From NCBI RefSeq assembly GCF_017313085.1, contig NZ_JAFLNF010000001.1:310001-374000 (forward strand): a stretch of 64,000 bases of DNA, given 5' to 3'. Positions 47,859-64,000 of the stretch are shown one piece after another. The position numbers and the translations under genes are program-made. The notes under the pieces were generated by a model. It made no database searches. It was not told the DNA's origin and saw only the letters and a list, made by a program, of their open reading frames with translations. How positions within the stretch are numbered: position 1 is the stretch's first letter; each line of letters opens with the position of its first letter. Source of the stretch: Roseibium limicola. Its GTDB lineage: Bacteria > Pseudomonadota > Alphaproteobacteria > Rhizobiales > Stappiaceae.

Positions 47859-47935
47859 GGCGGAGTAGCTCAGCCGGTTAGAGCAGCGGAATCATAATCC
47901 GCGTGTCGGGGGTTCGAGTCCCTCCTCCGCTACCA
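47859..47935 (+). tRNA. tRNA-Met(CAU), elongator type
   Basis: A 77-base cloverleaf with encoded CCA. Acceptor arms GGCGGAG/CTCCGCT (first pair G-U), D arm with AGCTCAGCCGGTTAGAGC, anticodon stem GCGGA/TCCGC around loop ATCATAA (anticodon CAT), T arm GGGGGTTCGAGTCCCTC. The first base pair and D arm fit elongator tRNA-Met rather than tRNA-Ile2. It is the integration point of the island to its right. Confidence 0.95.
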
Positions 47936-48025: not shown

Positions 48026-49972
48026 ATGGCACGTGCATCCTATATCCAGCGCCGCGACGGCCGTTATCACCTGCAAATCCGGCTTTCGAAAAGCCTCGGC
48101 CATATGCTTGGCAAGTCTACCTATAGAAAGTCTTTAGGGACCAGCCAGTACGGTGTCGCCCAATACCGACTACGGGAATGCCTTGGCTGGATCTACAGTA
48201 TGAACGAGAGCACCGATTACCCTCACCTCATCGAGATGAACCTGTTCACTCTTCGAGAGTACGTGTCAGACACCTGGCCGCTCTCCGACGAACGCCTGTT
48301 CTCGCGCAGAACCTACGAGGAGATGTTCAAAAACTTCAAGCATCGCGCGATCGCCGCAGGCTTCGATCCGACGGTGTACGCTCCGGACATCAATGCGCTC
48401 TTTGCGGCATTCGTTCAGCAGAACCTTGATGCCGAAGCTCACGAGCAAAACATCATTCGACAACAGCACTATGAGCGTGGGCGGCAGGACGCCCTGAGCA
48501 GTATGGCAAACGCGAGTGCGCCTTCAAGCTTTCAGATGAATATGCCAGTCGTTGGGTTCGCTACATCCGAGAGCCTTGAAATGGAAACTCAAGGCAATGA
48601 TATGGGCTCCGAGTCTGCACCCGATGAGCAGCAGTTCCAGCACGGGCATCAATCGCTCTTGCCCAGCTCCTCCGGCGGGGTCACGCTACAATCTAAAACT
48701 TCACATCCAGAGCTGGTGAAGCAAGCAAAACCAGTCCGGTTTTCGAATGCTCTCAGCCGTTTCCTGGACGAGACCGGCGGCAACAAGGACGCCAAATCAA
48801 CTACCCGCCTGATCGTGAATTTCCTGATCGACAAGCTGAACGATCCAATTGTTGCCGACTTCGACGCCGAGGCTGTCAGAACATTGGACAGGATGATCCC
48901 GGACATCCCGAACAAGAAAGGTGTCCCCGGAGTCCACTCTACATCGTTGGCTGCACGCCACGATTATGCGCAGCAATTCGGTTGGGACAATCTGACCCGC
49001 CTTACGGCTGCCCGGATCCAGAACGGTTATCACAACGAGCTTTCCAAGTTCTTCGGCTGGATGATCGATGAGGGAATTTACCCGCACGAAAAGCCCGTCT
49101 TCAAAACCCTCAGTCCGAAAAATCTCGTATCCATTTCAAGAGACGCATTCGACGACGATGAGGTAACCAGAATTTTCGCGCAGCCGCTCTTTACCGGATG
49201 CAGCAGCGTCAAACGCATCTGGCGGCCGGGCGACTATCTGATCCAGAACCACCTCTATTGGGCGTACCTCATTCTGCTTCTGACTGGAACCAGGCCGGGA
49301 GAGCTGGGTCAGCTCGATCTGAATGACATTCAGGAACGCGACGGTATCTCCTACCTGTTTCTACGCCCGTTCGACCCTCGAAACGGTCAAGTCGCGCTAG
49401 AGGATGTCAAACGCTTCAAGACCGAAAGCTCGCAGCGCGTTATCCCCCTGCACCCACTACTCTTCGATCTTGGCCTTCAGGAACGCATCGAAGAACTCCG
49501 CGAGATCGACTGCCCAGTCCTATTTCCGGAATGGGAACCCTATCCCAAACCTGACGGGGAAATCCGTTGGGGTCAGCCGATCACCAAGAGCTGGCAATAT
49601 CTCAAGAAAAACATCGAGATCGACCGTTCGGACGTCACTCTTTATTCAACCCGCCACTGGTTTGCTGACCTCATCGACAACACCGACATCAAGCACGCAA
49701 CCCGTACGCGCGTGATGGGGCATAAGAACAAGGATGACATCCCCTCCCGCTACGGCTCGAAGAGCCGGCTGACAACTCGGGATCTGGAGCTCCTCACCGA
49801 TATCCGCTCCCCGGTTATCGACAAGATTTCTGGGCCGCTCATCGCTGCCAAAGCGCTTGCCGATCAGGGCAAGCTGAAGGTTGTCAAACCCTGGCTGCAA
49901 CAGACGAACTGGTCGAAATACTACCGGAACAAGTTTCTCGGAAAGTCGGCCGGGAAAGCGAGCCTACCTTAA
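48026..49972 (+). CDS. tyrosine recombinase / phage-type integrase
   Basis: 648 residues. The N-terminus (YIQRRDGRYHLQIRLSKSLG) resembles the arm-binding domain of this integrase group (DUF6538-like). The C-terminal catalytic domain has TGTRPGE (Arg I), RFKTESSQRVIPLHP (Lys), LYSTRHWFAD (Arg II; the usual HxxR His is Tyr), MGHKNKDD (His) and PSRYG (nucleophile Tyr). It lies 90 bases from tRNA-Met and reads away from it, as usual for a tRNA-targeted integrase. It is long for the family because of a Gln/Ser-rich middle segment near residues 150-240. Confidence 0.9.
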   Translation: MARASYIQRRDGRYHLQIRLSKSLGHMLGKSTYRKSLGTSQYGVAQYRLRECLGWIYSMNESTDYPHLIEMNLFTLREYVSDTWPLSDERLFSRRTYEEMFKNFKHRAIAAGFDPTVYAPDINALFAAFVQQNLDAEAHEQNIIRQQHYERGRQDALSSMANASAPSSFQMNMPVVGFATSESLEMETQGNDMGSESAPDEQQFQHGHQSLLPSSSGGVTLQSKTSHPELVKQAKPVRFSNALSRFLDETGGNKDAKSTTRLIVNFLIDKLNDPIVADFDAEAVRTLDRMIPDIPNKKGVPGVHSTSLAARHDYAQQFGWDNLTRLTAARIQNGYHNELSKFFGWMIDEGIYPHEKPVFKTLSPKNLVSISRDAFDDDEVTRIFAQPLFTGCSSVKRIWRPGDYLIQNHLYWAYLILLLTGTRPGELGQLDLNDIQERDGISYLFLRPFDPRNGQVALEDVKRFKTESSQRVIPLHPLLFDLGLQERIEELREIDCPVLFPEWEPYPKPDGEIRWGQPITKSWQYLKKNIEIDRSDVTLYSTRHWFADLIDNTDIKHATRTRVMGHKNKDDIPSRYGSKSRLTTRDLELLTDIRSPVIDKISGPLIAAKALADQGKLKVVKPWLQQTNWSKYYRNKFLGKSAGKASLP

Positions 49973-50133
49973 AGAGGTTTGACCGGAACTCCATGGAACC
50001 ACACCCTGTCTAATGTCAGATTCGAGTCCCAATTACGGCCATCCCAAGGCTCGTTGCCTTCGCCCGGAAGCAGACATCCCGCTTCATCACTTCCCCGTTG
50101 CGCAAGATGGGGCCATCAAATGCATGCAGTGCC

Positions 50134-50673
50134 CTATGGCAGTGCCGTCCACCCAAGGTCGGCTTCGATCCTCCGCCTGTACGGGGTGTCGATCTGCCGG
50201 GGCGCATGGCGGATATAGCGTTCGGCCTCGTCTTTCTTTGCACCTTTGAGCCCCTGTAAGTAGGAGACGACCTGTTCAATGGTCGGGACCACCACTTGTC
50301 CGTCGAACTGCGGGGGCAGTGCCGTCCACACCACGCCTTCCACGCCATGCGCCAAGGCCCAGCCCGGTAGGCCCGGCAGCGCCTCCGGCGCGGCTCCCCC
50401 CTGCGACCAGGTCGCCACCCAGTCAACGTTCTTCGTCCCCTCGCGCACCATCAGCTGTCGTTTCGCGAGCCCCAAATCGTCCGTGTCCATAATGGCCCAG
50501 AACGATCGCACCTCTGGTGCTGTCGGCTCCAGCACCAGAGTTATGCGCCCGTTTTGCGACTGGCGCGTGAGTTCCACCCTCAGTAGCGGCCCATCGTCAA
50601 ACCACTCGCGGCGGATAGGAAGCTCGCGTGGATCCCAGATCAACGATCCCCAACCTAAGCATGCAATCGCCAT
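50134..50673 (-). CDS. GGCT-like hypothetical protein
   Basis: About 179 residues. It starts with MAIACLGWGSLIWDPRELPI, close to the YGSL-type glycine loop of gamma-glutamylcyclotransferase/ChaC proteins, but the rest does not show a clear catalytic Glu. The start 14 codons upstream (50715) is possible. It is divergent from the large ATPase at 50851 and convergent with the integrase, so any pairing is only positional. Function is unknown. Confidence 0.65.
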   Translation of the reverse strand: MAIACLGWGSLIWDPRELPIRREWFDDGPLLRVELTRQSQNGRITLVLEPTAPEVRSFWAIMDTDDLGLAKRQLMVREGTKNVDWVATWSQGGAAPEALPGLPGWALAHGVEGVVWTALPPQFDGQVVVPTIEQVVSYLQGLKGAKKDEAERYIRHAPRQIDTPYRRRIEADLGWTALP

Positions 50674-50850
50674 TTCTCTTGCCCTCTCCTCAACGCCCCT
50701 GAATATGTCCCACATTCCAACCTTGCCTACCCCCCAAAGGCAGCGGCGGTACTGCTGCGAGCTGTAAAGTATTACCCAAATACCTTTGAGGTTCGCTGAT
50801 ATATTTAAGGTTTCTGTTGCGCAAAATACGCTTTTCCCGCTAATTTCTCA

Positions 50851-53622
50851 GTGAAACAACCGGGGGGTAGGGACGTGGCGGTTACGGCAGCCTTTGGCTT
50901 CGATGAAAACGCTGACCTGGAGAGCAACCTCACCAAGCTAAAAACGCATCTCGGGTTGCATGACGCGGCCCTGAGCGCACAGCTCGCGACCTTCTACCCG
51001 GTCCTCCGCGATGAAACCTATACGCCCTCGCCCGTTTGGAATGCTATGTTCCAAGCGATCCATGATGCGGAAGCCGCCGCCGCACAGCAAACCACTGCGC
51101 CCACGCCTGCGGCAACTGGCCCAACCGCAGCTGCGGCAGTTCCGCCGGTTGCCGGTCCCACTGGCTGGTTTTTGGAAGGTCTGAGCATTGAGGGTTTCCG
51201 TGGCATAAACAATGAGGGTAAGCCGCTTCAATTGAAGTTCAAGTCCGACAAGGTCAACAGCGTCTCCGCCGTAAACGGCGTAGGCAAAACATCCGTTTAT
51301 GATGCCATTCGGTATGCGATATCCGGGAGGCTGCCGTGGTTAGAAGAACTCCCTCTGGGTGATCGTGACGGTGAGTATTACCTCAACCGGTTCCATCCTG
51401 CCCAGGCGGCGACTATCAAGCTCTCGCTCCGCGAAATGGTGACGAACCAATCTTGTGAAATCGAGGTCAAGCGGGACAGCTTGGGAACTCGAACGGTATC
51501 CGCATCCGGCACTTGGGATGGCAACGCCATCCTCCAGTCCCTCAATCGTGAGTTTGTGCTGCTCGACGGGCCGACCTTCCAAAATTTCATCGCGGCCAAA
51601 CCCCAAGCGCGGGGTCGCACGTTCGCGGGTCTGCTGGGACTCTCAGATTATAGCAGGATGCGCCAAGCCCTTGCGGCACTGTCAAATACGCGGGCGTTCA
51701 ACAACCACTTCGGCTTGCAAGCCCATACACAAGCCCAAGCCCACGCGCAGAAAGGAGTCAATGACGCGAGGGATGCCCTGAAACGCGACTATCTGATCCT
51801 GACGAGCGACGAATGGGGCATGATGCCGCTCGCCGATGGCCTCGCCAAGTGTTTCTCGGCGCTGGAGCAGATCGGCCCGCTGACGGCACTCTGCGCAGGC
51901 AGGACGTTCCGCGAGATCGACGTGGACGCCTGTATCGAGGCCGTCAAGGCTGCCGAGGGCGGCCCGCAACGAGAGCGCCTCGGGGAATGTGTCCGGCTCC
52001 GGCAGGAGCTGGTCACGCTGAACGTGCAGGTTCCCGATGCTGAGCGCACGAATCAGCTGGCGAATGTCGCGAAGAACCGCGAAGAGGCCGTCGTCAAGAC
52101 GGCCGGCGATGTCATCCTCCAGCTCTATCAGGCAGGGGCCAAGGCTCTTGAGCTGCCTGAGTGGGCGAACGCTGGTATATGCCCGCTGTGTGACAGTGCA
52201 GTTGCCCATGACCTTCACAGCCATGTCGGCACAAAGCTCTCCGCATTCACCGCACTCGACGAAGCAACCCAGGCGGTGGGCCTCGAATGGAACGAGGGGG
52301 GCTGGGCTGACCTGACAGGACTTGAGAAGCTGTTGGAGCCCGATGCCACCAAGCGCCCGATCGCTGCCCTGTCGGATACGGCGCAAAAGGGGGTGCTTAC
52401 CGAGGCGCAGGCCAAGGACCTTGCCGTCTGGCTGCGGACGTTGCGCGAGCGCGCGGCCGCCCGGGACAAGGCGCTGGAGAAAGAGCAGCGTGAGCTGGAG
52501 AAGATCCTTCCCCAGTCTTCAGTTGAGGTGACGAAGAAGGTTGAGGCGGCCCGCCGGATGCAAGAGAGCCTTGGCAAACTCGACGCCGCACAGACTGACC
52601 TTGACCGGGAGAAGGTCCGCGCCGACCGCGTGTCGCGCTTGAAGACATTTCTGGACCGGGCCTCGGACGATTTCGGGGTTGCAGAGGCGGGAATCAGCAA
52701 GGCCCGTCTGGCCGCGGTGGAACCCGTATTCAAGACCAACTTCGCGGAAATGTCGTTTTTCGGTGTCACGCCGGAGGTCGTCAAACGGGCTAATAGTGAG
52801 GATCTTCAGCTCCGCTTGCAGGAGTTCCACGGGCTGGCCGACCTGTCACCTCAGGCGCTGTTGTCGGAAAGCTACCGCAATGCCTTCGCCATCGCGCTCT
52901 ACCTCGCCGCAGCGTCACTTTACGGCGGGATGCCCAAGTTTATCGTGCTCGATGATGTGACCTCCAGCTTTGATGCAGGCCACCAGCTCTATCTCGTGGA
53001 ATTGCTCCGGAAAAGCTTTGCCCGGCCGGCCAACCCGAACGGGCTGCAGGTGATCCTGCTGAGCCACGACACCATGTTGGAAAAACTCTTCAACAAGCAC
53101 ACTGGTTCGGGTGTCTGGTGGCACCAGCGGCTCGAAGGCAACCCTCAGTTTGCGGTGCTGCCGCAAGCCGGCGCGGTGAACAAGGTGCGTGATCTTACAA
53201 TTTCAATGCTGCAGGCCGGACAAGCTGACTTCGCCAAAGAGGGAGTCCGGCAGTATCTCGAATACCGGCTGAGCGATCTCATTAGCAAGCTGCGCATCCC
53301 CGTTCCTGTGGACGTCGCCTTCAATGACAACAAGCAGCTGGCGGGGGAATTCCTCGGTGCGATCGACGCCGCCGTGAAACTCCACAAGGCGGGGGGATCT
53401 CTTATTCTCGAACCCGCTCAGGAGGCAGGCTTGAACGCCAACATGGCGACGATCGTTGGTAACTTCACCAGTCACTGGGGAACAGGCCAGGCTCTGGCCT
53501 TCACAGCGCCGGCGCTGCTCGGCATCATGAACGCGATCGACCAGTATTGCGACTGCTTTACTTTCATCCCGAATCCCGGGGATCCTCGGAAATTCTACAA
53601 ATCTCTTAGCCAGAAGCTGTGA
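50851..53622 (+). CDS. Rad50/SMC-like ATPase with zinc-hook motif
   Basis: 923 residues starting at GTG. Residues 1-105 are a separate N-terminal domain ending in an Ala/Pro/Thr linker (TTAPTPAATGPTAAAAVPP). Walker A is SAVNGVGKTS at about 139-148; two coiled-coil regions surround a CPLC motif at about 444-447, like the Rad50 zinc hook; Walker B is KFIVLDDVTSSFD near 692-705 and a switch-type LLSHDTM follows. The C-terminal ~170 residues are extra. It is probably a DNA-acting conflict or repair ATPase. It is not RloC-like in layout because the nucleotide-binding motif is not near the N-terminus. No obvious partner gene is adjacent. Confidence 0.8.
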   Translation: MKQPGGRDVAVTAAFGFDENADLESNLTKLKTHLGLHDAALSAQLATFYPVLRDETYTPSPVWNAMFQAIHDAEAAAAQQTTAPTPAATGPTAAAAVPPVAGPTGWFLEGLSIEGFRGINNEGKPLQLKFKSDKVNSVSAVNGVGKTSVYDAIRYAISGRLPWLEELPLGDRDGEYYLNRFHPAQAATIKLSLREMVTNQSCEIEVKRDSLGTRTVSASGTWDGNAILQSLNREFVLLDGPTFQNFIAAKPQARGRTFAGLLGLSDYSRMRQALAALSNTRAFNNHFGLQAHTQAQAHAQKGVNDARDALKRDYLILTSDEWGMMPLADGLAKCFSALEQIGPLTALCAGRTFREIDVDACIEAVKAAEGGPQRERLGECVRLRQELVTLNVQVPDAERTNQLANVAKNREEAVVKTAGDVILQLYQAGAKALELPEWANAGICPLCDSAVAHDLHSHVGTKLSAFTALDEATQAVGLEWNEGGWADLTGLEKLLEPDATKRPIAALSDTAQKGVLTEAQAKDLAVWLRTLRERAAARDKALEKEQRELEKILPQSSVEVTKKVEAARRMQESLGKLDAAQTDLDREKVRADRVSRLKTFLDRASDDFGVAEAGISKARLAAVEPVFKTNFAEMSFFGVTPEVVKRANSEDLQLRLQEFHGLADLSPQALLSESYRNAFAIALYLAAASLYGGMPKFIVLDDVTSSFDAGHQLYLVELLRKSFARPANPNGLQVILLSHDTMLEKLFNKHTGSGVWWHQRLEGNPQFAVLPQAGAVNKVRDLTISMLQAGQADFAKEGVRQYLEYRLSDLISKLRIPVPVDVAFNDNKQLAGEFLGAIDAAVKLHKAGGSLILEPAQEAGLNANMATIVGNFTSHWGTGQALAFTAPALLGIMNAIDQYCDCFTFIPNPGDPRKFYKSLSQKL

Positions 53623-53637
53623 CGAGGACCGTAGCGT

Positions 53638-53817
53638 CTAGTACTGACCGTCAAACAGGTCGACCAGCGCCCGGGTCATGAGGAAGACCAGTCGTCGGCG
53701 CCGCAAATGCTCGGGCCGTTCATAGATGTGGCACCGCTGGCAGAGCGCCCGGAGATTCCGCTGGTCATTATAAGCGAGCGAGCACGTATCGTCGGGATGG
53801 TAGCAAACGGCAAGGAT
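53638..53817 (-). pseudogene. HNH endonuclease-like gene fragment, 5' end lost at IS
   Basis: The minus strand encodes ILAVCYHPDDTC, SLAYNDQRNLRALCQRCHIY, then ERPEHLRRRRLVFLMTRALVDLFDGQY and a TAG stop. The H...N...H spacing with CxxC-like cysteines fits an HNH nuclease tail. The frame stops making sense at the IS left end (53818), and the sequence beyond the IS right end does not continue it recognisably. So this is a truncated gene. Confidence 0.6.
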
Positions 53818-53851
53818 TGAGCTGCTGCCGGTTTCGTGGACACCGAGTTAA
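53818..53851. repeat. IS left inverted repeat
   Basis: Begins TGAGCTGCTGCCGGTTT and ends GACACCGAGTTAA; pairs with 54936-54969 at 31 of 34 positions. Confidence 0.88.
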
Positions 53852-53861
53852 GGTGCTTGCA

Positions 53862-54147
53862 ATGAAGGAAGTTCAGCCGCGAATACAAGCTTGAGGCGGT
53901 GAAATTGGTGCGGGAGCGCGGCGTCAGTGTTGCGCAAGCAGCCCGCGATCTGGATGTCCATGAGAATGTGCTGCGCAAGTGGGTTAAGGACTATGGCTCT
54001 GACCCGGCGCAGGCTTTTCCTGGCCACGGGCAGATGAAGCCTGAGCAGCTCGAAATCGTGAGGTTGCGCAAGGAAATCGCCAAACTTAAGGCGGAGCGTG
54101 ACATCCTAAAAAAGGCCGCCGCCTACTTTGCCAAGGACGTGATATGA
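53862..54147 (+). pseudogene. IS3-family transposase orfA, frameshifted near its start
   Basis: The frame encodes RKFSREYKLEAVKLVRERGV, SVAQAARDLDVHENVLRKWV and RLRKEIAKLKAERDILKKAA, the helix-turn-helix plus leucine-zipper of IS3 orfA. The natural ATG at 53862 is out of frame with it (ATGAAGGAAGTTC; about two bases are missing relative to the usual MK[R/K]KF start), and an in-frame TGA precedes the good frame. A GTG at 53899 could still start a shortened protein. Confidence 0.75.
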
Positions 54148-54939
54148 AGTTCGCGTTCCGGCTTCCATGCCTGGCTTAATGGTTCTCCGAGCCAACATGC
54201 CCGGTATGACGAGGTTCTGCTCGACAAGATCAAAGGCAGATTCAAGGACAGTGACCGCACCTACGGCGCCCGGCGTGTCTGGCATGACCTCCTTGCCGAA
54301 GGGCTCTTCTGTGGTCTGCATCGTGTCGAGCAGCTCATGCGCGGCAATGCATTGAGAGCAAGGCCGAGACGGCGTGGCTTGCCGAAGGATGGTGGTGAGC
54401 GTTCGCTCATTATACCGAATATTCTGGATCGTCAGTTTGCAGCAGACCGACCGAACCAGAAGTGGGTGGCCGACTTTACCTATCTATGGACGGCTGAGGG
54501 CTGGCTCTATGTGGCCGCCGTCATCGACCTGTTCTCTCGCCGTGTCGTGGGTTGGTCAATGAACAACAGCATGACCTCTCAGCTCGTGACCGACGCGCTG
54601 ATCATGGCCATCTGGCGCAGAGGCAAGCCGGATGCGCTGCTGCATCACTCGGATCAGGGCACCCAATACACCAGCGAGCAATTCCAGCGCCTCATGGCCG
54701 ACCATGGTATCGCCTGCTCGATGAGCCGGTCTGACAATGTCTGGGATAACGCTGCGATGGAAAGCTTCTTCTCATCTCTGAAAACTGAAAGGACAGCCCG
54801 CAAGATCTACAGAACTCGAGACCACGCCAGGGCAGACGTGTTCGACTACATCGAGCGCTTCTACAATCCAAAGCGTCGACACTCGACACTGGGGTATCTC
54901 AGCCAGATGGAATTTGAAAACAAGGTCGGATTAGCTTAA
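54144..54939 (+). pseudogene. IS3-family transposase orfB, internal deletion and frameshift
   Basis: ATGA overlap with orfA. It begins MKFAF, then changes frame; the frame resumes at FHAWLNGSPSQHARYDEVLL, so about 20 codons around the start (roughly IAKHRG...VSRSG in relatives) are deleted. The catalytic core is intact: WVADFTYLWT (first D), HHSDQGTQYTS (second D), SDNVWDNAAMESFFSSLK (E). The stop codon lies inside the right inverted repeat. Confidence 0.8.
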
Positions 54940-54969
54940 CTCGGTGTCCGAAAAACCGGCAGCAGCTCA
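54936..54969. repeat. IS right inverted repeat
   Basis: Complement of the left repeat with 3 differences in the central four bases; ends AGCAGCTCA. Confidence 0.88.
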
Positions 54970-55136
54970 ACACCGCCAATAACGTTAGCTGCAAGCTCAA
55001 AGAGCGAGATAACGCCAACGGTACGAGCATATCTTCAGTCGCGTGAACAGGTACGCCTCGCCCGCAACCCGGCACCTTGACATGCTGGGGCAACGGCGGT
55101 TTCATTTTTTGATGATTGGACCTCGCAGACTCAAAC

Positions 55137-55688
55137 ATGACCACCAAACAAAACGCTATCGAGTATCTAAAAGACCACATCGGCATTCTTGCCACTGATG
55201 AGAAGCGATTTGGGCCTCACCGAGCTATGCAACAATTCGGCTCTGAGTTTCGCCCCAGATTGGATGCTTCGTCTCGGCTACCTCGCGGCGCGACCAAGTC
55301 ATGTTACGCCAACGCCACTGCTTATGCCGTCACTCATCGCAATCTGTTCTATTCTGAGGGATATGCCCTCGATCCCGAATTCTCACTACCGTTTCAGCAT
55401 GCTTGGCTTGTTGATGAAGCCGGCGAAGTGATTGACCCGACTTGGAAGGACGCAGAACAACACGTCTATTTCGGCATCACGTTCAGAGCGGACTTTCTTA
55501 CCGAAATGCTGAAACACAGTGAGGACGAGTGCGGACTACTCGCGAACCAGAGGCTTATGCGAAAGCATTATTCCACCCCAGAGCTCCTGAGCGCTGGTGT
55601 GCTGCCGAAGTCTGAACTGCCTATCGCTGGTTCTTCTTGCCCCAATTTAAAAGCACCACTCTCGCTTCAGAATCTGAGCCAGCGCTAG
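55137..55688 (+). CDS. phage-type protein with Cys-His-Asp hydrolase pattern
   Basis: 183 residues from the ATG at 55137 (MTTKQNAIEYLKDHIG). KSCYANATAYAVTHRNLFYSEGYAL, then PFQHAWLVDEAGEVIDPTW, gives a Cys, His and Asp in the order of transglutaminase-like or papain-like cysteine hydrolases. I recall the pattern (CxxNA ... EGYA ... HAW ... DPTW) from phage and island proteins of unknown function. No partner is evident. It follows the IS remnant by 167 bases. Confidence 0.65.
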   Translation: MTTKQNAIEYLKDHIGILATDEKRFGPHRAMQQFGSEFRPRLDASSRLPRGATKSCYANATAYAVTHRNLFYSEGYALDPEFSLPFQHAWLVDEAGEVIDPTWKDAEQHVYFGITFRADFLTEMLKHSEDECGLLANQRLMRKHYSTPELLSAGVLPKSELPIAGSSCPNLKAPLSLQNLSQR

Positions 55689-56147
55689 AAAGATTTCGGG
55701 GACACTCCCCGTCGCGGAGTAGATGGGAGAAAGGCGGGCAGAAACGTTTTCGCGGTCTGCAGGAATGACAGGAATGCGCCGGAAACAGACTGTAGGCTAC
55801 GCGACGCCGAACATCACAGTTCTTAACGTCTAGGTCTGAGTTCCAAAGCAGCGGTCCACCATGCAGAGCGGTACAAGTGCGGTGCGGAAGAGGTGTTGCT
55901 CGAGATCATCCGAGAGCGGTAACCCACCCGCAGGCATGTGCGCAAACACCAATAAAAAGAGCGCCTGAATGGTCAAGACTTCCGGCTGTGGCTATTCATC
56001 TCGGGAAACGGATCGAAGCGGCTGGTTTGGATAACGTTCTGTTGATCCGAGCTCCGATGCCGGTCGCAAAAAAATTGTAACAACAACCCTAAGCTGCTAT
56101 GTGTCCGGTTTAATAATCGCATGTTTCACGGATATTGCGGGTAGGCC
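55689..56147. other. gene-poor stretch before the ABC-3C operon
   Basis: About 460 bases with several short, unpersuasive frames. A small hairpin GGGGA/TCCCC lies at about 55698-55710. The last 60 bases, AT-rich, probably contain the ABC-3C promoter. Confidence 0.45.
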
Positions 56148-57362
56148 ATGAGCGGAAAGTCGCGGGTCGATACGACAAATGCAGCTGATAAATCTATCGG
56201 TTTCGATTACCAATACTATTACTTTCTCAATGAACTGTTGAACCTCAAAACCGGTCAAATGGTAGGTCTGGAGTTCCTGGACGACGTCCACGTTCGACGC
56301 CCCGATGGCTCAAATATGCTTATCCAGGTCAAGCACACCGTCCAGAAAAACGCACAGGGTCAGGCCATCAATCTTACGACGATGGATCATGATCTCTGGA
56401 AGTCGATTTCGAACTGGTGCAAGCTCATCACCGACCCTTTGGACGGGCGCAAGGACGTTGCGCCGCAACTGGCCTTCCTCAAGCAGACCAGCTTTCTCCT
56501 CGCATCCAACAAGTTGGGGAACGGCAACAACACCTTCCTGGCTTCATTCGAGGCCTTCTCGGCCAGCACCAAAAGCCACGCCGAGCTCGTGGCTGATATC
56601 GAGACGCTAAAAGGCAAAAGCAAGGACATTGTGCTTCAAGCCTACATGGCCGAGTTGCTGCTACTCGATGTAAATGTTTCCAAGGCATTTTTCGAGCGTT
56701 TAGCGTTTGCTTTGGGGAAGGACGAGATCATCGACCTGTGCAAGGCCTCCATCGCTGAAAAGCAGATACATCCGAAACGCGTCGACGACGTTTTCAGCGT
56801 CGTCGACTCCGAGGTCCGACAGCACTCCTTCGCCACGGTCAAGGCGGGGGACAAGATCGAGATTAGTTTCGACGAATTCAACCGGAGATACCGGCGTCAT
56901 TTCGACAGGGGCCGGAGCGGCGAACTGATCTTTAGAGACTTCAATCCGGTCCTGCCGGACCATCTATCTGACCAGACTTTCATTAGGCAACTTGTTGACA
57001 TCGAGGACATCGACGCGGACGCCATCGAGTCCCATTCTGCGTTCACTACGCGTCGATTGAATTTCCGTAACAACCTCGAACGACTTCGCAATGACGGAGA
57101 GATTGGGCAGCCGGACATCGACGCCATGGAGGATGAAGCAGGTCTCATGTGGGAAAACCAGTTCCGGCATGCGCATTCTGGTCAATTAGCTCCCCCTGAC
57201 GAACGTGTGCCTGCCCGCGCTATTCTAGGTGACCTACGCTCGAGAAAGCTGAAGCTCGCATCGCAAGAACTTCCACTCGCCTTGAGCAACGGCGGGTTCT
57301 ACGAGCTCTCCGACCGCCCGGTGATCGGCTGGCTGAAGAACTGGAAAGATCGCTACAAGTGA
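56148..57362 (+). CDS. ABC-3C system nuclease/effector component
   Basis: 404 residues. The N-terminal domain has the CAP4-like PD-(D/E)xK nuclease layout: GFDYQYYYFLNELL, Glu42, Asp45/46 (LEFLDDV) and IQVKH at 59-63. The C-terminal part, after about residue 250, ends in a domain (DDFNPVLPDHL-like FRDFNPVLPDHL ... GFYELSDRPVIGWLKNWKDRYK) that fits the C-terminal partner domain of ABC-three-component systems. It would cut DNA once the system is triggered. Its TGA overlaps the GTG of the next gene, the first of two 4-base overlaps. Confidence 0.82.
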   Translation: MSGKSRVDTTNAADKSIGFDYQYYYFLNELLNLKTGQMVGLEFLDDVHVRRPDGSNMLIQVKHTVQKNAQGQAINLTTMDHDLWKSISNWCKLITDPLDGRKDVAPQLAFLKQTSFLLASNKLGNGNNTFLASFEAFSASTKSHAELVADIETLKGKSKDIVLQAYMAELLLLDVNVSKAFFERLAFALGKDEIIDLCKASIAEKQIHPKRVDDVFSVVDSEVRQHSFATVKAGDKIEISFDEFNRRYRRHFDRGRSGELIFRDFNPVLPDHLSDQTFIRQLVDIEDIDADAIESHSAFTTRRLNFRNNLERLRNDGEIGQPDIDAMEDEAGLMWENQFRHAHSGQLAPPDERVPARAILGDLRSRKLKLASQELPLALSNGGFYELSDRPVIGWLKNWKDRYK

Positions 57363-57805
57363 AATTGGATTCGCATTACAACAACCTGGCAATCAATGCG
57401 TTCGCCATCTCTTCCATACTGAACGAAGCCCGCTTCCTGACCATTCCAGAGATCGCGCTGATCCTTCCCATTGTCGCCCATCGCGATACGATGAGGAAGC
57501 TTTCCAACCGCTCCTTTCGCTTCGTGAGCTTCGAGCAATACCTGATCGACAACATCGACCATTTCTACAATTTCAACGATAGGTTTTTGGCCGCCCTCAC
57601 GCCGACGATTAACGCCCTGCAGTTCTTGCTTGAAATTGAAGTTCTCCAATTGGAGGAGAACGGTGCGGCAATCGTGTCCGCATTGCCATTTGATGCTTCC
57701 ATGGGGAGGCGCGCCAAACGCGTTCATCGGGCGTCGGCGAACATCGCTGCCATGATTTCCGGCAATGCCAAGGTTTTCTACCTCAATGCGAGGATCGAAT
57801 TATGA
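57359..57805 (+). CDS. ABC-3C system middle component
   Basis: 148 residues from GTG. It is a small all-alpha/winged-helix-like protein: NNLAINAFAISSILNEARFLTIPEIALILPIVAH ... RRAKRVHRASANIAAMISG. It matches the small middle component that links the ATPase and the effector in ABC-3C operons; the general role is known only from computational work. It overlaps both neighbours by 4 bases (GTGA and ATGA). Confidence 0.8.
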   Translation: MKLDSHYNNLAINAFAISSILNEARFLTIPEIALILPIVAHRDTMRKLSNRSFRFVSFEQYLIDNIDHFYNFNDRFLAALTPTINALQFLLEIEVLQLEENGAAIVSALPFDASMGRRAKRVHRASANIAAMISGNAKVFYLNARIEL

Positions 57806-59661
57806 AATTCTACATCGAAAGCCTTCAGCTCTGGCTGAAGAGCGGTCGACGGCGCACCGTTTCATTTCTGCCGAACAAGGTCAACGTTATCACTGGCGAC
57901 AGCCACACCGGCAAGACGGCGATCTTGGACATCTTCGACTACTGCTTCTTCGCTAGCAAGCATCGGATCTCCGAGAGCATCATCAACGAGAACGTCGCTT
58001 GGTATGGCCTGCGTATCCATCTGGACGACAAGGTCTACCTAATTGCGAGACGTGCGCCGACCGGGACGACACCGTCTACCAACTACCATTTCTCGGCAAC
58101 GGGCGAAATACCTGAAACTCAGCCAAGCGCGAATATCAGCGAAAGCGTATTGAAGAAGTTGTTGAGCGCCGATTTCGGTATCGACCAAGACGTGAAAATC
58201 CCGTTTGGCGGAAGGACACTCAGGGCGAATTCCCGGGTTTCGCTCAGATACTTCCTGCTCTTCAACACGATCTCTCAGGACATCATCACGCATAGCGACC
58301 AGTTCTTCGACAAACAGAACCAGTCCCGCTACCAGGAAGCGTTGCCACGCATCTTCGACATGGCTGTGGGAATCGACACTGTCGAGAACATATTAAAACG
58401 GGAGAAACGGACAGAACTGGAGCGTAGTCTCGCCCGCCAACAAAGACTGCTGGCGAAAACGGAGGAAAAGCGGGTGCAGTTCAACGCGCAGTTAACCGAA
58501 ACAGTCGCCCGAGCCAAAGGTTTCGGTTTGATAGCCGACGATCCTGACGTCGATGCGTCAGTCGTTGCCTTGCGGCATATCGTGAGAGATGGCGATAGCG
58601 GCAGTGACTTGCATGTGTCGGCGAAACACGAGGAGCTTTCCTCCGAGATTTATCGCATCGCCCGAAAGATCAAAGGGCTCACACGGTTCATTGCGGAATA
58701 TGAGAGCCACAAGTCGACCCTTAAGGAGACAGAGGACAGCCTGCGGCCCGTTGAATACCTGATCAGTAATTTCGAGGAGACGGTTAGGACGTCGGTATTC
58801 GATGAAATCCTCGCAAACCTCTCCCTGGGACTCAGGGAAATTAAAGCAGCAACTGTCGCGAAGACGCCCCTGGACAGCAATATTACCGAGATCCTGAAGG
58901 GGCTGAGAGCTCAGCACGATAACCTGATAAATCAGCTAAAAGCCCTGCCTGCCGAGATGGAAGGCTTAGAGAACGATAAGGCGAAATATCTCTTCATTGG
59001 CGAGACAAAGGCAAAGCTAGAGCTCTACGGCGACGTAGAGGCCGATGCGATCTCCGACAACAGCGATCTGATCGCAAGCTTGGAATCTCAAATCGAAGAC
59101 CTGATTGTCGAATCCGTCGAGGAACGGAAAGAGCTGTTTATCAAGGCCTTGGATGAAGCGATTCAGGACTACATTTCTTTGACTAAGGCGGCGCTCGGGA
59201 ACTACGGAAACTATCGTTCCGCATTCAACTACTCGGAAAAGAAGCTTCACCTTCGCAAACCCAAGACAACTTCGACCGAAAATGTTGGTAGTAGCTCTAA
59301 CCATATGTTCCTCCACCTCTTCCTGTTCCTGGGTTTGCATGAACTGATATTACGGAATGGTGGAAGCCACGTGGCTCCGTTTCTTATCATCGACCAGTTC
59401 TCCCGACCTTACTGGGGCGAGGATGATCAGGCAGAGCAGGCCGCGAAAGAGGATGTTGCCGAAAGTGACGTTGCGAAGGTCAAGCTCGCATTGGAGCTTC
59501 TGGACAGCTTCATCGGCGTCGCGAACGAAATGGACAAAGAATTCCAGATGATCGTTTTCGAGCACATCAAACCGCGATACTGGGATGGTTTGGAGAATGT
59601 ACACCTTGTTGAAGTCTTTCGTGACGGAAACGCCTTGCTCCCCCTCTCTGAGCTGGGCTAG
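57802..59661 (+). CDS. ABC-3C system ATPase (DUF3732, Rad50-like)
   Basis: 619 residues. Walker A GDSHTGKT at 32-39 begins after a Rad50-like N-terminal strand; a long coiled coil runs about 190-500 (ERSLARQQRLLAKTEEKRVQ, EELSSEIYRIARKIKGL); Walker B is FLIIDQFSRPYW near residue 525, the DUF3732 signature, and a final FEHIKPRYW precedes the end. It would sense nucleic-acid structures and gate the nuclease component. The ATG overlaps the stop of the middle component by 4 bases. Confidence 0.88.
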   Translation: MKFYIESLQLWLKSGRRRTVSFLPNKVNVITGDSHTGKTAILDIFDYCFFASKHRISESIINENVAWYGLRIHLDDKVYLIARRAPTGTTPSTNYHFSATGEIPETQPSANISESVLKKLLSADFGIDQDVKIPFGGRTLRANSRVSLRYFLLFNTISQDIITHSDQFFDKQNQSRYQEALPRIFDMAVGIDTVENILKREKRTELERSLARQQRLLAKTEEKRVQFNAQLTETVARAKGFGLIADDPDVDASVVALRHIVRDGDSGSDLHVSAKHEELSSEIYRIARKIKGLTRFIAEYESHKSTLKETEDSLRPVEYLISNFEETVRTSVFDEILANLSLGLREIKAATVAKTPLDSNITEILKGLRAQHDNLINQLKALPAEMEGLENDKAKYLFIGETKAKLELYGDVEADAISDNSDLIASLESQIEDLIVESVEERKELFIKALDEAIQDYISLTKAALGNYGNYRSAFNYSEKKLHLRKPKTTSTENVGSSSNHMFLHLFLFLGLHELILRNGGSHVAPFLIIDQFSRPYWGEDDQAEQAAKEDVAESDVAKVKLALELLDSFIGVANEMDKEFQMIVFEHIKPRYWDGLENVHLVEVFRDGNALLPLSELG

Positions 59662-60522
59662 CGAAAATGACGCGGCCACTCCTTTGCGGACGCCAAAGAC
59701 CACACTCGGATCAGTCCTCAATACGCCTCTATTGGTTTAGCCAGGTAAGCGAAGTTGAGTTCCCGGGCTATCCGGGACTACTGCATGGCTTCGGACCCAG
59801 CACTCGCAAGGCCGCCAACGGATAGGTGGCGAATTCGGTTGACTTCTGGGCGAGGCAATGAAGCGAGAACCCAAAGGATATCCCCGCACACCTCCTTTTG
59901 GCCACCGGCGACGAGGCCCCACCACGAGGAAGGTCTGCTCTTGGGTGCACGCCACGACGGCATTCACGTCTGAATGAGGGCGCTTAGGGGGAATAATGTC
60001 GGCTGTGCGCGCCGGAGATTCAATCATCTTCAACCCGGATGTGTTCGCGACTTCGACGACGAATCTCGATGGGCGAGTGGATGAAAACATCAGGTGGATC
60101 TCCGAGTTTGCGCGGGTGAAGCCCACTTAGAAAAGGCGATGGTGTTCGATGATGTCCCTTGGTGTCGGATTGGATCAAACAAAGTCCCACCAATATTAAC
60201 CTGGCGGCACAGCAACGATTGGCTTTGGTCGTGAACGATGCTAGCCGATGTCCGCTCCTGGGAGGCGACTAGGATGCGAGCAATGACCAGATTGGGAACG
60301 CAAAGAGGTTACTCGCTTGGCGAAGAACATACGACGGAACCCAGTCGCAATTGGGCACTCTATCCGAATTGTTTTGAACCGAAGCCTTCCCCGCCCGGGT
60401 TTCTCATAACGTACCATTCGGAACCTGCCTAGCACCTGGATTTATTTGTCCAAGTGGCCGACCAGCGGTCTATAAGAGGTTTTTACTCTGCCGAGGCTAA
60501 ACTGATGCAAGGAACTTTGCAT
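59662..60522. other. 860-base gene-poor stretch between two conflict systems
   Basis: Frames run through on both strands (one of 129 residues on the minus strand at 59737-60126), but none has a convincing ribosome site, domain or length. A stretch around 60165-60270 reads like protein (SDWIKQSPTNINLAAQQRLALVVNDASR) without a proper start. It may be decayed coding sequence. No repeats or RNA genes seen. Confidence 0.5.
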
Positions 60523-62460
60523 TCACACCGCCTTCTGAAGGTCTTGGCCGTTCGCGGAAATAATCTCCAGCACCTCCCTACCCTCAAGTTTGTGTTTTTG
60601 CATCAGGGCGTCGGCGAGCGCGTGATGTGCAGATACGTTCTCCTCCAGAACCGCGCGTGCATCTTCGTAAGCCGTTACCAGCGTATTCTCGACCCGTCGG
60701 CGCAGGGCGTGATCCGTGAGCAGGATTTCACGAACTTGTCGGGACCCACTCGAAACCAGGTGCAAAAGGTTGCCTCCAAAACCGAAGCTGGCTTCCATCT
60801 CGGTCGCGACCTTCGTAGCTGAAGCCAGATCGGACCCTATGGATCCACCACCCCCGTCAGCGATTTCACCTAAGATCAACTCTTCGGCAGCAAGACCCGC
60901 CAGATGCACCATCAGCTGTGCCTCATAGTCACTGCGTGTCCGAGCCTTCAACGTCGAGCTCAACACCTCCAGAGCTCCAGCCTCACGCCGCGCTTTAGAT
61001 TCTGAAAGCTTTGGTTCAATCCGGAGCCGCACAATTTCGCCATCTCCGACCTTGGCTTGCAGGATGGCATGTCCTGCTTCGTGGACAGCAATTCGCCGTA
61101 GGTCTTCCTGTCTGAATGCAAATTGTTTGGGAAGTCTGGAGGCAAGGTCACCAAATTTAAGGTGCCTTTTTTCCTTACGAGCTGCCCGGCGGGCATCACG
61201 CACAAACTTTTCGATGTCCGCTCCCGAAAATCCTTCTAGACGGCCAGCGATGTCAGACAGGCAATCGTCCGCCAGCGCACCCTTCAAATGCCAACGCAAA
61301 ATCTGCTCGCACGCCGAACGGTCGGGCAGCGGGATGTAGATTGTCTGTTCCAAACGTCCCGGTCTCAGGAAAGCGGGGTCGATAAGCTCTGGGTGATTGC
61401 ACGCGGCAATGACAACGATGCCTTCCCGGCCCTCAACACCGTCGAGGCACTCAAGCAGTCCGTTGATTTTCTCTACGACGTAAAGAGCATTATCTCCACG
61501 GACGGTCCCGCGATCACCGACAGAATCGAATTCATCGAGAAACAGAATGCACGGCGCTTTTTTTCGTGCGTCGGAAAATGTTCGTCGCATGGCTTTCAGA
61601 AGGTCCCCCAAATGACCCGCCGCCTGCCATTGAGCAAGTGAGGTGGCTACAAGCTCTATGCCGCAGCTGCGAGCAAGCGCCTTGGCATACGTTGTCTTGC
61701 CTGTCCCCGGAGGTCCGGCGACGAGTACTCCGCGATTCACCTCCGACCATGGCAGCTCTCCAGCGCTCCAATCTTTAAGATCAGCCGCAAGCTCTCTGCC
61801 CCAGTCTCCAGCTTCGCCAAGACCTGCAAGGCTTTCAAGCGAGAACATGTCACCAGACTGACTGCGATTGCACTTGGAGTCGTCTGAGGAGATAGCGTCC
61901 AGAACCCTTCTCCAAGACTTGCCTCGAGAAGCAGCCAAGGACAGGTCTAACAGACTGTAGCTCGTCAAGTGCTCGGCTTCTTGAATACTGATGTCTATGC
62001 CGACACAGTAATCAAAAGCGGCTTGGATTTGCCGTGGTGTCGGACCTTCCAGATAAATAATCGCATCAGCGATCTTACGGAGGAGATCAGGAAGATCTTC
62101 TTCTGCCTTCGCAACTGCAAAGATCGCCTTCTTGCCTTGGAGAGCCACTAAAAAACTATCATCGGTGCGTTCACGCTGTCTGTACCTTCCGGCCCCTACC
62201 GGCTCACACTCAAGGACGACTGTGACGGCATTAGAGAACCGGTCTCTTAGCCCTCTCAGGTCAGGGAGACGTAGAAGTGTAAGAGCCTCATCAATTTCAT
62301 CGACAGATGCTTTCTGACCAGAAACGATACCGACCACGGGCGGGAAGGACAGCTTCATCTCTGGCACTTTACGCAAAGCACGGCGAACGATGCAGTGCGT
62401 AAGAAACTGATTGAAACTTGGCTTTTTCTGCCGGAAATAGCAGCGTAGGACGTTGGACAT
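60523..62460 (-). CDS. soluble FtsH-like AAA ATPase with M41 metalloprotease domain
   Basis: 645 residues. The N-terminal ~230 are unlike FtsH and contain no membrane helix. Then AAA: GPPGTGKTT (about 247-255), ILFLDEFDS (about 305), DPAFLRPGRLEQTIYIPLP (Arg fingers). Then M41: VHEAGHAIL (zinc ligands, about 458-466), LAGLAAEELILGEI and GSDLASATKVATEME, where the Asp is the third ligand. All catalytic positions are present. GGAGAG precedes the ATG. It lies 175 bases after the nuclease-like gene on the same strand, and probably unfolds or digests a protein target within that pair. Confidence 0.85.
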   Translation of the reverse strand: MSNVLRCYFRQKKPSFNQFLTHCIVRRALRKVPEMKLSFPPVVGIVSGQKASVDEIDEALTLLRLPDLRGLRDRFSNAVTVVLECEPVGAGRYRQRERTDDSFLVALQGKKAIFAVAKAEEDLPDLLRKIADAIIYLEGPTPRQIQAAFDYCVGIDISIQEAEHLTSYSLLDLSLAASRGKSWRRVLDAISSDDSKCNRSQSGDMFSLESLAGLGEAGDWGRELAADLKDWSAGELPWSEVNRGVLVAGPPGTGKTTYAKALARSCGIELVATSLAQWQAAGHLGDLLKAMRRTFSDARKKAPCILFLDEFDSVGDRGTVRGDNALYVVEKINGLLECLDGVEGREGIVVIAACNHPELIDPAFLRPGRLEQTIYIPLPDRSACEQILRWHLKGALADDCLSDIAGRLEGFSGADIEKFVRDARRAARKEKRHLKFGDLASRLPKQFAFRQEDLRRIAVHEAGHAILQAKVGDGEIVRLRIEPKLSESKARREAGALEVLSSTLKARTRSDYEAQLMVHLAGLAAEELILGEIADGGGGSIGSDLASATKVATEMEASFGFGGNLLHLVSSGSRQVREILLTDHALRRRVENTLVTAYEDARAVLEENVSAHHALADALMQKHKLEGREVLEIISANGQDLQKAV

Positions 62461-62635
62461 AACTCTCCTGCTCCCGCTGAAGGATCTCCAGGCGGGATTA
62501 AATGGTTCAAAATATTTTGGGCTATTGGCCTACCGAGTTTCGTCCGGCGTCAGGCCGTTTGATCATTCCAGCGTTCTCAAACTAGAAACATTCGTCACGC
62601 CCAGAATAGCGGCTTTTAGCCGCGAGCTCCTCAGC

Positions 62636-63562
62636 TTAGGCGCCGACGCTTTGCATCTGACGGCCTTGACGCCGAAGCGGAAGAACCGACAAACACTCGG
62701 CAAGTGAAGGCCGTACATCGGCGGTTTCAGCAGAAGCCTCAGCTCTGACTTCGGGAAGAGAGCCAGTGTTCTCAACCTGTCCATCGGTGTCCGCCTGGCG
62801 GCAGTTATTGCCGATTGCCGCCAGAAGGCGCGGCACCATACGCTCTGCGATGCCGGACTTCATATAAGCGGACATCACCTCGACAGTTTCGGCGATCGGA
62901 AGCCCAAAATAAGCGTCTACCGTTTCACGCGTGACGGTCTTTCGGGCAACAATTCCGGAACGTCCATACCAATCGATGAGCACCTTCTTGACGGAAAGCA
63001 CGGGAAGACCTTTTCGTAGCATTAGGTTCTTCAGCATGAGACCGGCTGCGGTGAGATCCTTACGCGCATCTCGCGCCGCCTGTCCGCCTTGTGCACCGCC
63101 TCCTCGTTTGACGGAAATAACATGCAAGTCACCGGTAGTATGATCAAAGGCCAAAATGTCGATAATCACGCGCTTTCCATGAGAGCCGCCGACTGGAAGA
63201 TTCAGATCGTCAAGCTTGTCGATTTGGTTGCTCTCAACCAGCGCCATAGCTTCCTTGGAAACAACCAACGAGACCTGAGTCGACACTTCGTAGCGGTCTC
63301 CGGCAGCGGCAAATGCGTGCGCAATGGCATCTTCCAGCAGCAGACCGTGGCGCTTGGACAGGCTGTCGAGTGGTCCTCTCAATTGCGTGAGCTTGTTTCC
63401 CAATAGCTCGTCCGAACAGTAGATCTTGTCAAAGCACTCCTGCAACGCGGCATCAACCGCTTCGCGGAGCTCCACGGGGAGATGTGTGGTTTCAGGTGTA
63501 TAAGTGCTTTGGGCGCTAGCACATGTGGCTGATACGCTAGAAATGGAATTGTGGTTATGCAT
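62636..63562 (-). CDS. putative PD-(D/E)xK nuclease, partner of the AAA protease
   Basis: 308 residues. A low-complexity Ser/Thr N-terminus, a helical region with LLLEDAIAHAF (Glu77), then KRVIIDILAFD (Asp135), HVISVKRGGG (Lys152) in a strand-turn-strand setting. E...D...xxK with VKRG is the restriction-endonuclease-like pattern. The C-terminal half (KKVLIDWYGRSGIVARKTVTRETVDAYF) is unrecognised. AAGGAT lies 7 bases before the ATG. I know no named family for it. It is upstream of the protease gene and divergent from an XRE regulator. Confidence 0.65.
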   Translation of the reverse strand: MHNHNSISSVSATCASAQSTYTPETTHLPVELREAVDAALQECFDKIYCSDELLGNKLTQLRGPLDSLSKRHGLLLEDAIAHAFAAAGDRYEVSTQVSLVVSKEAMALVESNQIDKLDDLNLPVGGSHGKRVIIDILAFDHTTGDLHVISVKRGGGAQGGQAARDARKDLTAAGLMLKNLMLRKGLPVLSVKKVLIDWYGRSGIVARKTVTRETVDAYFGLPIAETVEVMSAYMKSGIAERMVPRLLAAIGNNCRQADTDGQVENTGSLPEVRAEASAETADVRPSLAECLSVLPLRRQGRQMQSVGA

Positions 63563-63648
63563 GAGTGATCCTTATCGTTAGATGACGAGAACCAAAAGCG
63601 CACTTTTAATGCACACATGCAATCTGATTCATCAATTATGGTTAACTA
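63563..63648. promoter_or_regulatory. divergent promoter between nuclease-like gene and XRE gene
   Basis: 86 AT-rich bases. TGCACACATGCA at about 63612-63623 is an imperfect palindrome and a candidate operator for the XRE protein; no direct proof. Confidence 0.45.
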
Positions 63649-63894
63649 ATGATAAATGCAAAGCAATGTCGCGCTACCCGAGCTTGGCTATCTTGGTCAC
63701 AAGATGAGCTTGCCAGAAGGTCTCAGGTGTCCAAGAGAGCGATAGCTGGATTCGAGCTGGAAAAAACAGTTCCGCACGACCGTACCCTGCGTGATCTACA
63801 GCGGGCTTTTGAAGACGCCGGGATTACGTTCCTCATGGAAGGGGCAAAAGGAATTGGGTTGAGAGAAAGTCAGGAAAACTCGGCGAGCGACTAA
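63649..63894 (+). CDS. XRE-family transcriptional regulator
   Basis: 81 residues. LSWSQDELARRSQVSKRAIAGFELEKTVPHDRTLRDLQRAFEDAG is a complete XRE helix-turn-helix with the following helix. The start at 63649 is ATG after TAACTA. It is divergent from the nuclease-like gene and likely represses that operon. Nothing else is visible after it; 63895-64000 shows no gene. Confidence 0.85.
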   Translation: MINAKQCRATRAWLSWSQDELARRSQVSKRAIAGFELEKTVPHDRTLRDLQRAFEDAGITFLMEGAKGIGLRESQENSASD

Positions 63895-64000
63895 ACCCGG
63901 TTACCGGAGAGACAACGCTTTACGTTCTGGGTTGCCTGCGCCGAGTATTGCGGTCGCTCGGGTTAAGCTTTGTTGATTCAGCCACTCAATTTTGCTTCTC

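Follow-up and report, generated by a model that had tools for sequence, protein, structure and literature searches.

A 64,000-nucleotide stretch of the Roseibium limicola genome (the window; contig 1, positions 310001-374000, in a genome of 4.5 Mb) contains a three-gene locus encoding P308, a 308-residue putative nuclease, a soluble FtsH-like protease of 645 residues, and a divergent XRE-family repressor. Our analysis, which was wholly computational, identifies this locus as a probable undescribed defence module in which a nuclease is controlled by proteolysis. The explanation that we favour, with a probability of about 0.45, is a mobile and probably anti-phage module in which the restriction-fold nuclease P308 is controlled by a dedicated soluble FtsH-type protease. 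A sequence-only reading of this DNA had proposed that regulated proteolysis governs DNA cutting here. Gene pairing, the fold of P308 and a defence setting now better supported than in that reading partly support the proposal; its suggestion that an inhibitor or a phage protein is degraded is less favoured, because a conserved tail points to P308 itself as the client. The features of the locus are as follows.

60523..62460, minus strand: soluble FtsH-like AAA+/M41 metalloprotease, 645 aa (open-reading frame (ORF) call; Pfam AAA and Peptidase_M41); N-domain at about 1-207, AAA+ at about 208-445, M41 at about 450-635 (HEAGH 460-464, D544)
62461..62635, minus strand: 175-bp gap between P308 and the FtsH-like gene, without a DUF6634 gene
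62636..63562, minus strand: P308, putative PD-(D/E)XK-fold nuclease, 308 aa (ORF, structure model, fold search, conservation); core 29-250, variable linker 251-284, conserved C-terminal tail 285-304
62648..62710, minus strand: codons of the P308 tail, residues 285-305, PSLAECLSVLPLRRQGRQMQS; proposed docking or processing tag
63598..63614, strandless: imperfect palindrome GCGCACTTTTAATGCAC in the divergent promoter region; candidate XRE operator
63649..63894, plus strand: XRE-family repressor, 81 aa, transcribed away from P308 (Pfam HTH_3, E 2.8e-6)

The P308 and FtsH-like pair

ORF calling and the DNA confirm the three adjacent genes, and a chance reading of these frames is ruled out because relatives at 50-79% identity keep the same layout. 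Close relatives of the module are present in Roseibium, Labrenzia and Pannonibacter records. P308 occurs in 10 of 87 family genomes, the window's included; in nine of these (50-100% identity) it stands between a divergently oriented XRE gene and an FtsH-like gene, the latter cut short in genome G007, from Pannonibacter carbonis. The tenth genome has a P308 that is 28% identical and an FtsH-like protein of 758 residues that is 41% identical over the AAA/M41 part, with no XRE match. The sequence-only reading depended on co-occurrence of the two genes, and adjacency is indeed conserved: it is seen in 9 of 9 close family loci (window included) and, overall, an FtsH-like gene lies within about 1.5 kb at 16 of 27 examined P308 loci and is missing from the other 11. 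These 27 exclude L068 and L069, which have no P308 ORF by profile, and L075, a repeat of L060 that is counted among the 34 FtsH-first loci described below. Eight of 297 order genomes, again including the window's, carry P308, and loci L036 and L037 hold the full set with a DUF6634 gene between the pair. The class and phylum samples gave 12 of 385 and 4 of 299 genomes, each figure including the window's genome and some repeats; nine of the 11 non-window class genomes were taken into the set (without G684 and G387). Among 72,556 plasmid records there was one P308 match.

The pairing is not scattered at random over the P308 tree. Presence of the FtsH-like gene changes three times among the 27 proteins, compared with a mean of 8.9 after shuffling (0 of 500 shuffles were as low), and the starred branches of the tree force at least two changes, either two gains or a gain and a loss. 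Niveispirillum-type pairs (L060-L062) sit inside an otherwise FtsH-less clade and look like a separate gain, judging from the tree. Its deep order is unsure, with long branches for L065, L020 and L063; in L065 two overlapping genes encode the AAA part and the M41 part separately. A DUF6634 gene lies between P308 and the FtsH-like gene in 6 of the 10 other loci that carry the P308 tail (intact in L013-L016, L036 and L037), and L012 has an internally deleted remnant. Among the DUF6634-bearing sisters is the Roseibium hamelinense locus L024. DUF6634 (PF20339) is a family of unknown function whose members stand between this pair or beside other soluble FtsH-likes; it has no match anywhere in the window, and we found no paper naming it in the open-licence PubMed Central literature.

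At E 1, P308 matches nothing in Pfam, PADLOC or NCBIfam, and as a single sequence it finds nothing better than E 0.5 among PDB sequences. The best PDB match of its profile, MboA (E 0.016 over 65 positions), was not accepted as kin. A structure model and a fold search agree on a restriction-type PD-(D/E)XK fold with an alpha-beta-beta-beta-alpha-beta core, bearing out at moderate model quality the nuclease fold suspected from sequence. The E...D...VKRG pattern noticed earlier corresponds to E77, D135 and S150-V-K152-R153-G154. D135, K152 and R153 are conserved in 27 of 27 relatives and E77 in 20. Position 150 is acidic (E or D) in 11 of these proteins, among them the ExK-bearing L040 and L067, S in 12 and N in 4; it is Ser in the window, and DNA cleavage by P308 is therefore still putative. 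E77 could stand in for the acidic residue at 150 in the catalytic site.

The description of the partner as a complete AAA/M41 protease without a membrane helix also holds. Pfam places AAA (E 1.3e-30) and Peptidase_M41 (E 2.1e-15) in the 645-residue protein, both above the cut-offs, and K255 of Walker A, D309/E310 of Walker B, H460, E461 and H464 of HExGH, and D544 are invariant in a nine-row alignment (A3). Its best 19-residue Kyte-Doolittle mean is 0.80 within residues 1-235 and 1.41 over the whole protein, which gives no membrane helix; in the 34 other FtsH-like ORFs the maximum is at most 1.96, with L072 (1.96 at 503) and L020 (1.92 at 103) borderline. Like FtsH and the mitochondrial i-/m-AAA enzymes, it has AAA+ and M41 domains, their catalytic motifs and an FtsH-like ATPase fold. 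Unlike FtsH, it has no transmembrane helix, scores 199.3 bits against the FtsH equivalog TIGR01241 (cut-off 600) and carries its own N-domain. FtsH has FVG at the pore-loop position; the window protein, aligned to PDB chains, has HLG there, versus (W)VG in Cdc48-type proteins. The cell's own FtsH, encoded on contig 16, shares 32% identity with the window protein over the AAA/M41 part. The P308-linked form is dispensable, since 10 of 87 family genomes have it.

The N-terminus was called unfamiliar, and it remains so: its 207 residues match no Pfam family at E 0.1, and a 17-row profile of the N-domain has no match among PDB sequences. The domain is common to the window type and a Rhizobium type (hhalign E 4.5e-23). 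Pooled N-domains resemble the lid half of their own AAA domain (score 29.4; at most 18.4 in 60 shuffles and 16.5 when reversed), whereas rows of the window type taken by themselves get no further than E 0.017 against AAA. This resemblance hints at an origin from a degenerate AAA+ domain, and is suggestive only; the structure model of the full FtsH-like protein is poor (pLDDT 54; residues 1-140 below 50). The N-domain profile found 2 of 385 class genomes, the window's included; the first pass scored at most eight candidates per genome, and the count is not a frequency.

The P308 tail and a proposed mechanism

The sequence-only reading did not include the C-terminal tail of P308, nor DUF6634, the island ends or the wider soluble-FtsH family described below. 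In 11 P308 proteins that range from 100% down to 39% identity with that of the window, residues 285-304 have a mean pairwise identity of 79%, compared with 14% in the linker and 61% in the core. Different codons are used at 504 of 868 identical residue pairs, so the tail is conserved as protein and not as DNA. It is missing from the other 16 P308 proteins, 11 of them FtsH-less and five FtsH-linked (L020, L060, L061, L062 and L065), and is confined to one FtsH-linked clade. The N-domain profile matches the proteases of tail-bearing loci at E 5e-46 or better, a biased score in that the same rows helped to build the profile; in the five tailless FtsH-linked loci it gives E 3e-7 or worse, or no match, which makes for a partly circular contrast. 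This correlation inside one clade suggests that the tail is read by the window-type N-domain, and the tail could be a protease-docking tag. A DNA pattern of the tail motif RRQGRQM matches 17 of 87 family genomes (the reversed-pattern control, none). Nine of the 17 matches are P308 genes, and we reject a general role of the tail as a tag on other proteins. Of the other eight, four fall inside ORFs of 75-693 aa, of which those in L185 and L186 are antisense to longer ORFs, and four fall outside any ORF of at least 60 aa; in these eight regions none of the listed ORFs is labelled P308 or FtsH-like.

On the explanation that we favour, the XRE protein would keep the divergent operon at low expression. 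A hexamer of the FtsH-like protein would hold P308 by its conserved tail, which is borne on a variable, disordered linker. Upon infection, the AAA+/M41 machine would engage the tail and alter the state of the nuclease; most likely it would trim the tail and linker, releasing or activating the folded core rather than destroying P308, and the freed nuclease would then cut phage or cell DNA. The protease N-domain and DUF6634 are candidate sensors of the trigger. M41 enzymes offer a precedent, since m-AAA matures MrpL32 in a trimming, or processing, step. MrpL32 is a soluble substrate modified by that M41 enzyme (PMC9020784).

Defence setting and rival explanations

The module lies in an island that carries several defence genes.

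47908..47935, plus strand: left island end, the 3' 28 bp of tRNA-Met (CAT) (tRNA and repeat searches)
48026..49972, plus strand: island integrase, 648 aa (DUF6538 and weak Phage_integrase)
56148..59661, plus strand: neighbouring ABC-3C/Lamassu-like defence operon (LmuA, MC3/LmuC, LmuB with DUF3732); context, outside the module

The 28-bp tRNA end is repeated exactly at window coordinate 69160-69187 (G000:C1:379160-379187), beyond the window, and the two att-like copies bound an island of 21.3 kb. Besides the Lamassu-like operon, the island holds a gene for a 923-aa ATPase, an AbiD-type gene and an AbiJ_NTD4 gene. Seven of the 11 tail-bearing loci, the window's included, are near hallmark genes of known defence systems. 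For the six besides the window these stand at a distance of up to about 6 kb: GajA/GajB (L012), SIR2-HerA (L013), Cas1/Cas7 of CRISPR I-C (L018; Cas7 about 7 kb away), MzaCDE (L019), RT-Cas1/Cas2 with ZorA (L036) and DrmD of DISARM (L037). The scanned ORFs of L014-L017 gave no credible defence match; in the loci other than the window's the scan covered a minority of the neighbours, picked by eye. A 'mad3' match in L016 was taken as a transporter ATPase and was not counted. L020, a more distant locus, has a short pAgo set and an Mrr-type gene nearby; L043 is beside CBASS. We do not regard the module as a Lamassu accessory, given that the neighbour varies by locus (Gabija, SIR2-HerA, CRISPR, Mza, ZorA, DrmD).

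An alternative that makes use of the same tail is restraint by degradation. The tail would be a degron by which the FtsH-like protease constantly destroys P308, and infection, through protease inhibition, loss of ATP or a phage protein, would let the nuclease accumulate and kill the cell. C-terminal tails are common degrons of AAA+ proteases, and both the conservation of the tail and the consecutive placement of P308 and protease on one strand fit such a scheme. However, two genomes have a broken protease gene: in G007 it is split near the ends of two contigs (residues 1-122 and 116-643) in an insertion-like manner, and in G283 it loses its frame within M41. P308 retains its core and tail in both, where an unrestrained lethal nuclease should not survive; the same genomes mildly favour activation or tethering, and they weaken a toxin-antitoxin arrangement with FtsH as antitoxin. 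The XRE protein scores 24.1 bits against the toxin-antitoxin model TIGR03070 (cut-off 71.65) and is encoded divergently, outside the P308 operon. Very recent breaks, wrong assemblies or silencing by XRE alone would rescue restraint, which we consider unlikely overall. The tail might also do no more than dock P308 on the AAA+ ring, with the ring serving as motor or scaffold, like McrB for McrC, and with M41 acting on other proteins such as a phage protein. The window ATPase differs from McrBC in carrying an M41 protease. HEXXH is retained in 42 of 46 FtsH-like ORFs (counted without identical copies, L075 and ORFs below 400 aa, with some truncated ones included), so that proteolysis itself seems to be selected; McrC, moreover, scores no better than many other restriction folds, and the window-type N-domain rows by themselves match AAA at no better than E 0.017. 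We think a purely tethered complex rather unlikely.

Defence itself may be the wrong context. The protease and its changing DNA-acting partners could instead serve the upkeep or regulation of mobile elements (plasmid, island or Tn7-like transposon) by controlling the processing of element DNA. Soluble FtsH-likes on 33 plasmid records, TnsA-like proteins directly upstream of six FtsH-likes, and TnsB/TnsA relatives in L043, L080, L138, L156, L161, L163, L164 and L166-L168 agree with this. Against it, the P308 lineage lies near hallmark genes of at least seven defence systems, though such genes are common element cargo, and P308 was found in none of 50,697 phage records and confirmed in none of the viral contigs. 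We judge a non-defence role distinctly unlikely. That the genes are chance neighbours in a gene-dense island and work separately is close to refuted: while 11 of 27 P308 loci have no FtsH-like gene and 33 of the 34 FtsH-first loci no P308, order and orientation are kept from 100% to 39-40% P308 identity, and the paired loci cluster on the tree, with a recurrence in the separate group L060-L062.

The wider family, known systems and other neighbours

Soluble FtsH-like proteins extend beyond the P308 module. Relatives at E 1e-50 or better are found in 33 plasmid records, on alphaproteobacterial plasmids (18 of the 33 were inspected), and at E 1e-60 or better in 12 of 199 order genomes, the window's included; 14 of 16 matches in the order survey were newly retrieved and two were already in the set. 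Within 4 kb of the FtsH-like gene, the 34 FtsH-first loci encode a calcineurin-like phosphoesterase (11), DUF6634 (8), XRE (6), a DnaQ-type exonuclease (2) and P308 (1). A search of viral contigs with alignment A3 gave at least 32 loci at 23-35% identity, a few of which reach into M41. A tentative extension of our explanation, possible but doubtful, would make soluble FtsH-types a mobile immune family of Alphaproteobacteria that share an AAA+/M41 core, with a client-selecting N-domain of possibly degenerate AAA+ origin and with swapped partners (P308, calcineurin-like phosphoesterase, TnsA-like protein, DnaQ exonuclease or DUF6634); the P308 tail would be its first recognised client tag. We found no paper on the Rhizobium FtsH-like neighbourhood in the open-licence PubMed Central literature.

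The TnsA-like protein is encoded directly upstream of six FtsH-likes (L070, L072, L073, L082, L083 and L156), and its profile matches TnsA-type proteins at E 4e-6 to 1e-5. It has about 200 residues, the catalytic Lys seems to be missing by eye, and four tested proteins have no Pfam match. Its homology to P308 is unsupported (hhalign E 0.2), and an AECL motif common to it and the P308 tail is a weak lead that we did not accept (profile E 1.8; hhalign over 9 columns, E 0.00087, probability 23%). In L163, L164, L166, L167, L168, L161 and L080 the soluble FtsH-like gene lies a few kb from TnsA/TnsB-type genes, suggesting that these FtsH-likes are cargo of Tn7-like elements.

A system of this layout is in none of the family libraries, nor in the top-ranked titles and abstract openings of the open-licence PubMed Central literature, in keeping with the earlier statement that no named system of this kind was known to its author. 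IetAS, an AAA ATPase with an S8 protease, couples AAA+ activity to proteolysis in defence. The PADLOC IetA model matches the AAA part of the FtsH-like protein, the NCBIfam model gives 99.5 bits against a cut-off of 510, and the window protease is a fused M41 domain rather than a separate subtilisin; the FtsH-like gene is flanked by P308 and LmuB instead of an IetS-like S8 gene, no separate search for S8 genes having been made. FtsH is otherwise known mainly as a membrane quality-control enzyme. The closest published idea comes from Hachiman, AVAST, Lamassu, DRT and canu (Tuck et al., 2025, PMC12799240), whose nuclease-protease pairs turn up repeatedly in defence islands and close to transposases. 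In these pairs, as proposed here, a nuclease gene is recurrently paired with a protease gene and the nuclease is switched by proteolysis, but there two insertions gate a nuclease of metallo-beta-lactamase fold, and its partner is a trypsin- or caspase-like protease (PMC12799240). The window module has a restriction fold with a C-terminal tail and an ATP-driven M41 protease, and thus neither the metallo-beta-lactamase pro-nuclease nor the trypsin/caspase partner of the HamM, Avs1a and CanC pairs. The words FtsH, AAA, metalloprotease, Lon and M41 are absent from the main text of that paper (PMC12799240). The module probably works like the known pairs without being a member of them. That bacterial immunity uses protease-switched nucleases is a recent finding, made for proteases of trypsin and caspase type (PMC12799240). 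If our explanation is true, an ATP-driven processive metalloprotease would be a different kind of switch, and FtsH would have an immune role. On the more doubtful extension to a whole immune family, ATP-driven proteolysis would be a general switch for immune effectors, a counterpart to the trypsin/caspase pairs. The wider FtsH-like family offers natural variants with other partners.

The divergent XRE repressor noted earlier lies on the strand opposite P308 and adjoins it in 11 of 11 tail-bearing loci. Its candidate operator, the palindrome GCGCACTTTTAATGCAC, is retained in L014, L015 and L016 and partly in L019 (XRE 75-89% identical) and is not retained in L012, L013, L017 and L018 (XRE 65-68% identical). 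A terminator scan also lists it, with a site count no higher than in shuffles. No Rfam family reaches its gathering score in 50000-64000.

Several other genes near the module or its relatives were noted. The 923-aa ATPase at 50851-53622 is of SMC/AAA_23 type, with similarity to LmuB (2e-20) and mad3 (7.5e-17), and is possibly a further defence gene of the island. At window coordinate 64606-65439 (L120 807-1640) is a DUF5983-containing protein with an N-terminus of RQRAYRARQK type, and similar small proteins were seen by eye near the module in L014, L019, L036 and L037. A protein of about 360-480 aa stands beside the module in L012 (11682-12809), L015 (11335-12429), L036 (9934-11217), L037 (9969-11417) and L156 (8822-9889); these look alike by eye only, lack a Pfam match where tested (L012, L036 and L156), and may be a further module component. 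In L038 (4330-8885) the partners are the same but the protease is missing: P308 and XRE are accompanied by DUF6634, a metallophosphoesterase, a 177-aa protein and an AAA protein that lacks M41. L041 (2478-7334) and L042 (3470-8370) share one set, in which a short P308-like gene is divergent from an HSP90-type ATPase and a helicase that has an apparent N-terminal restriction-type domain; this set is perhaps another undescribed defence system.

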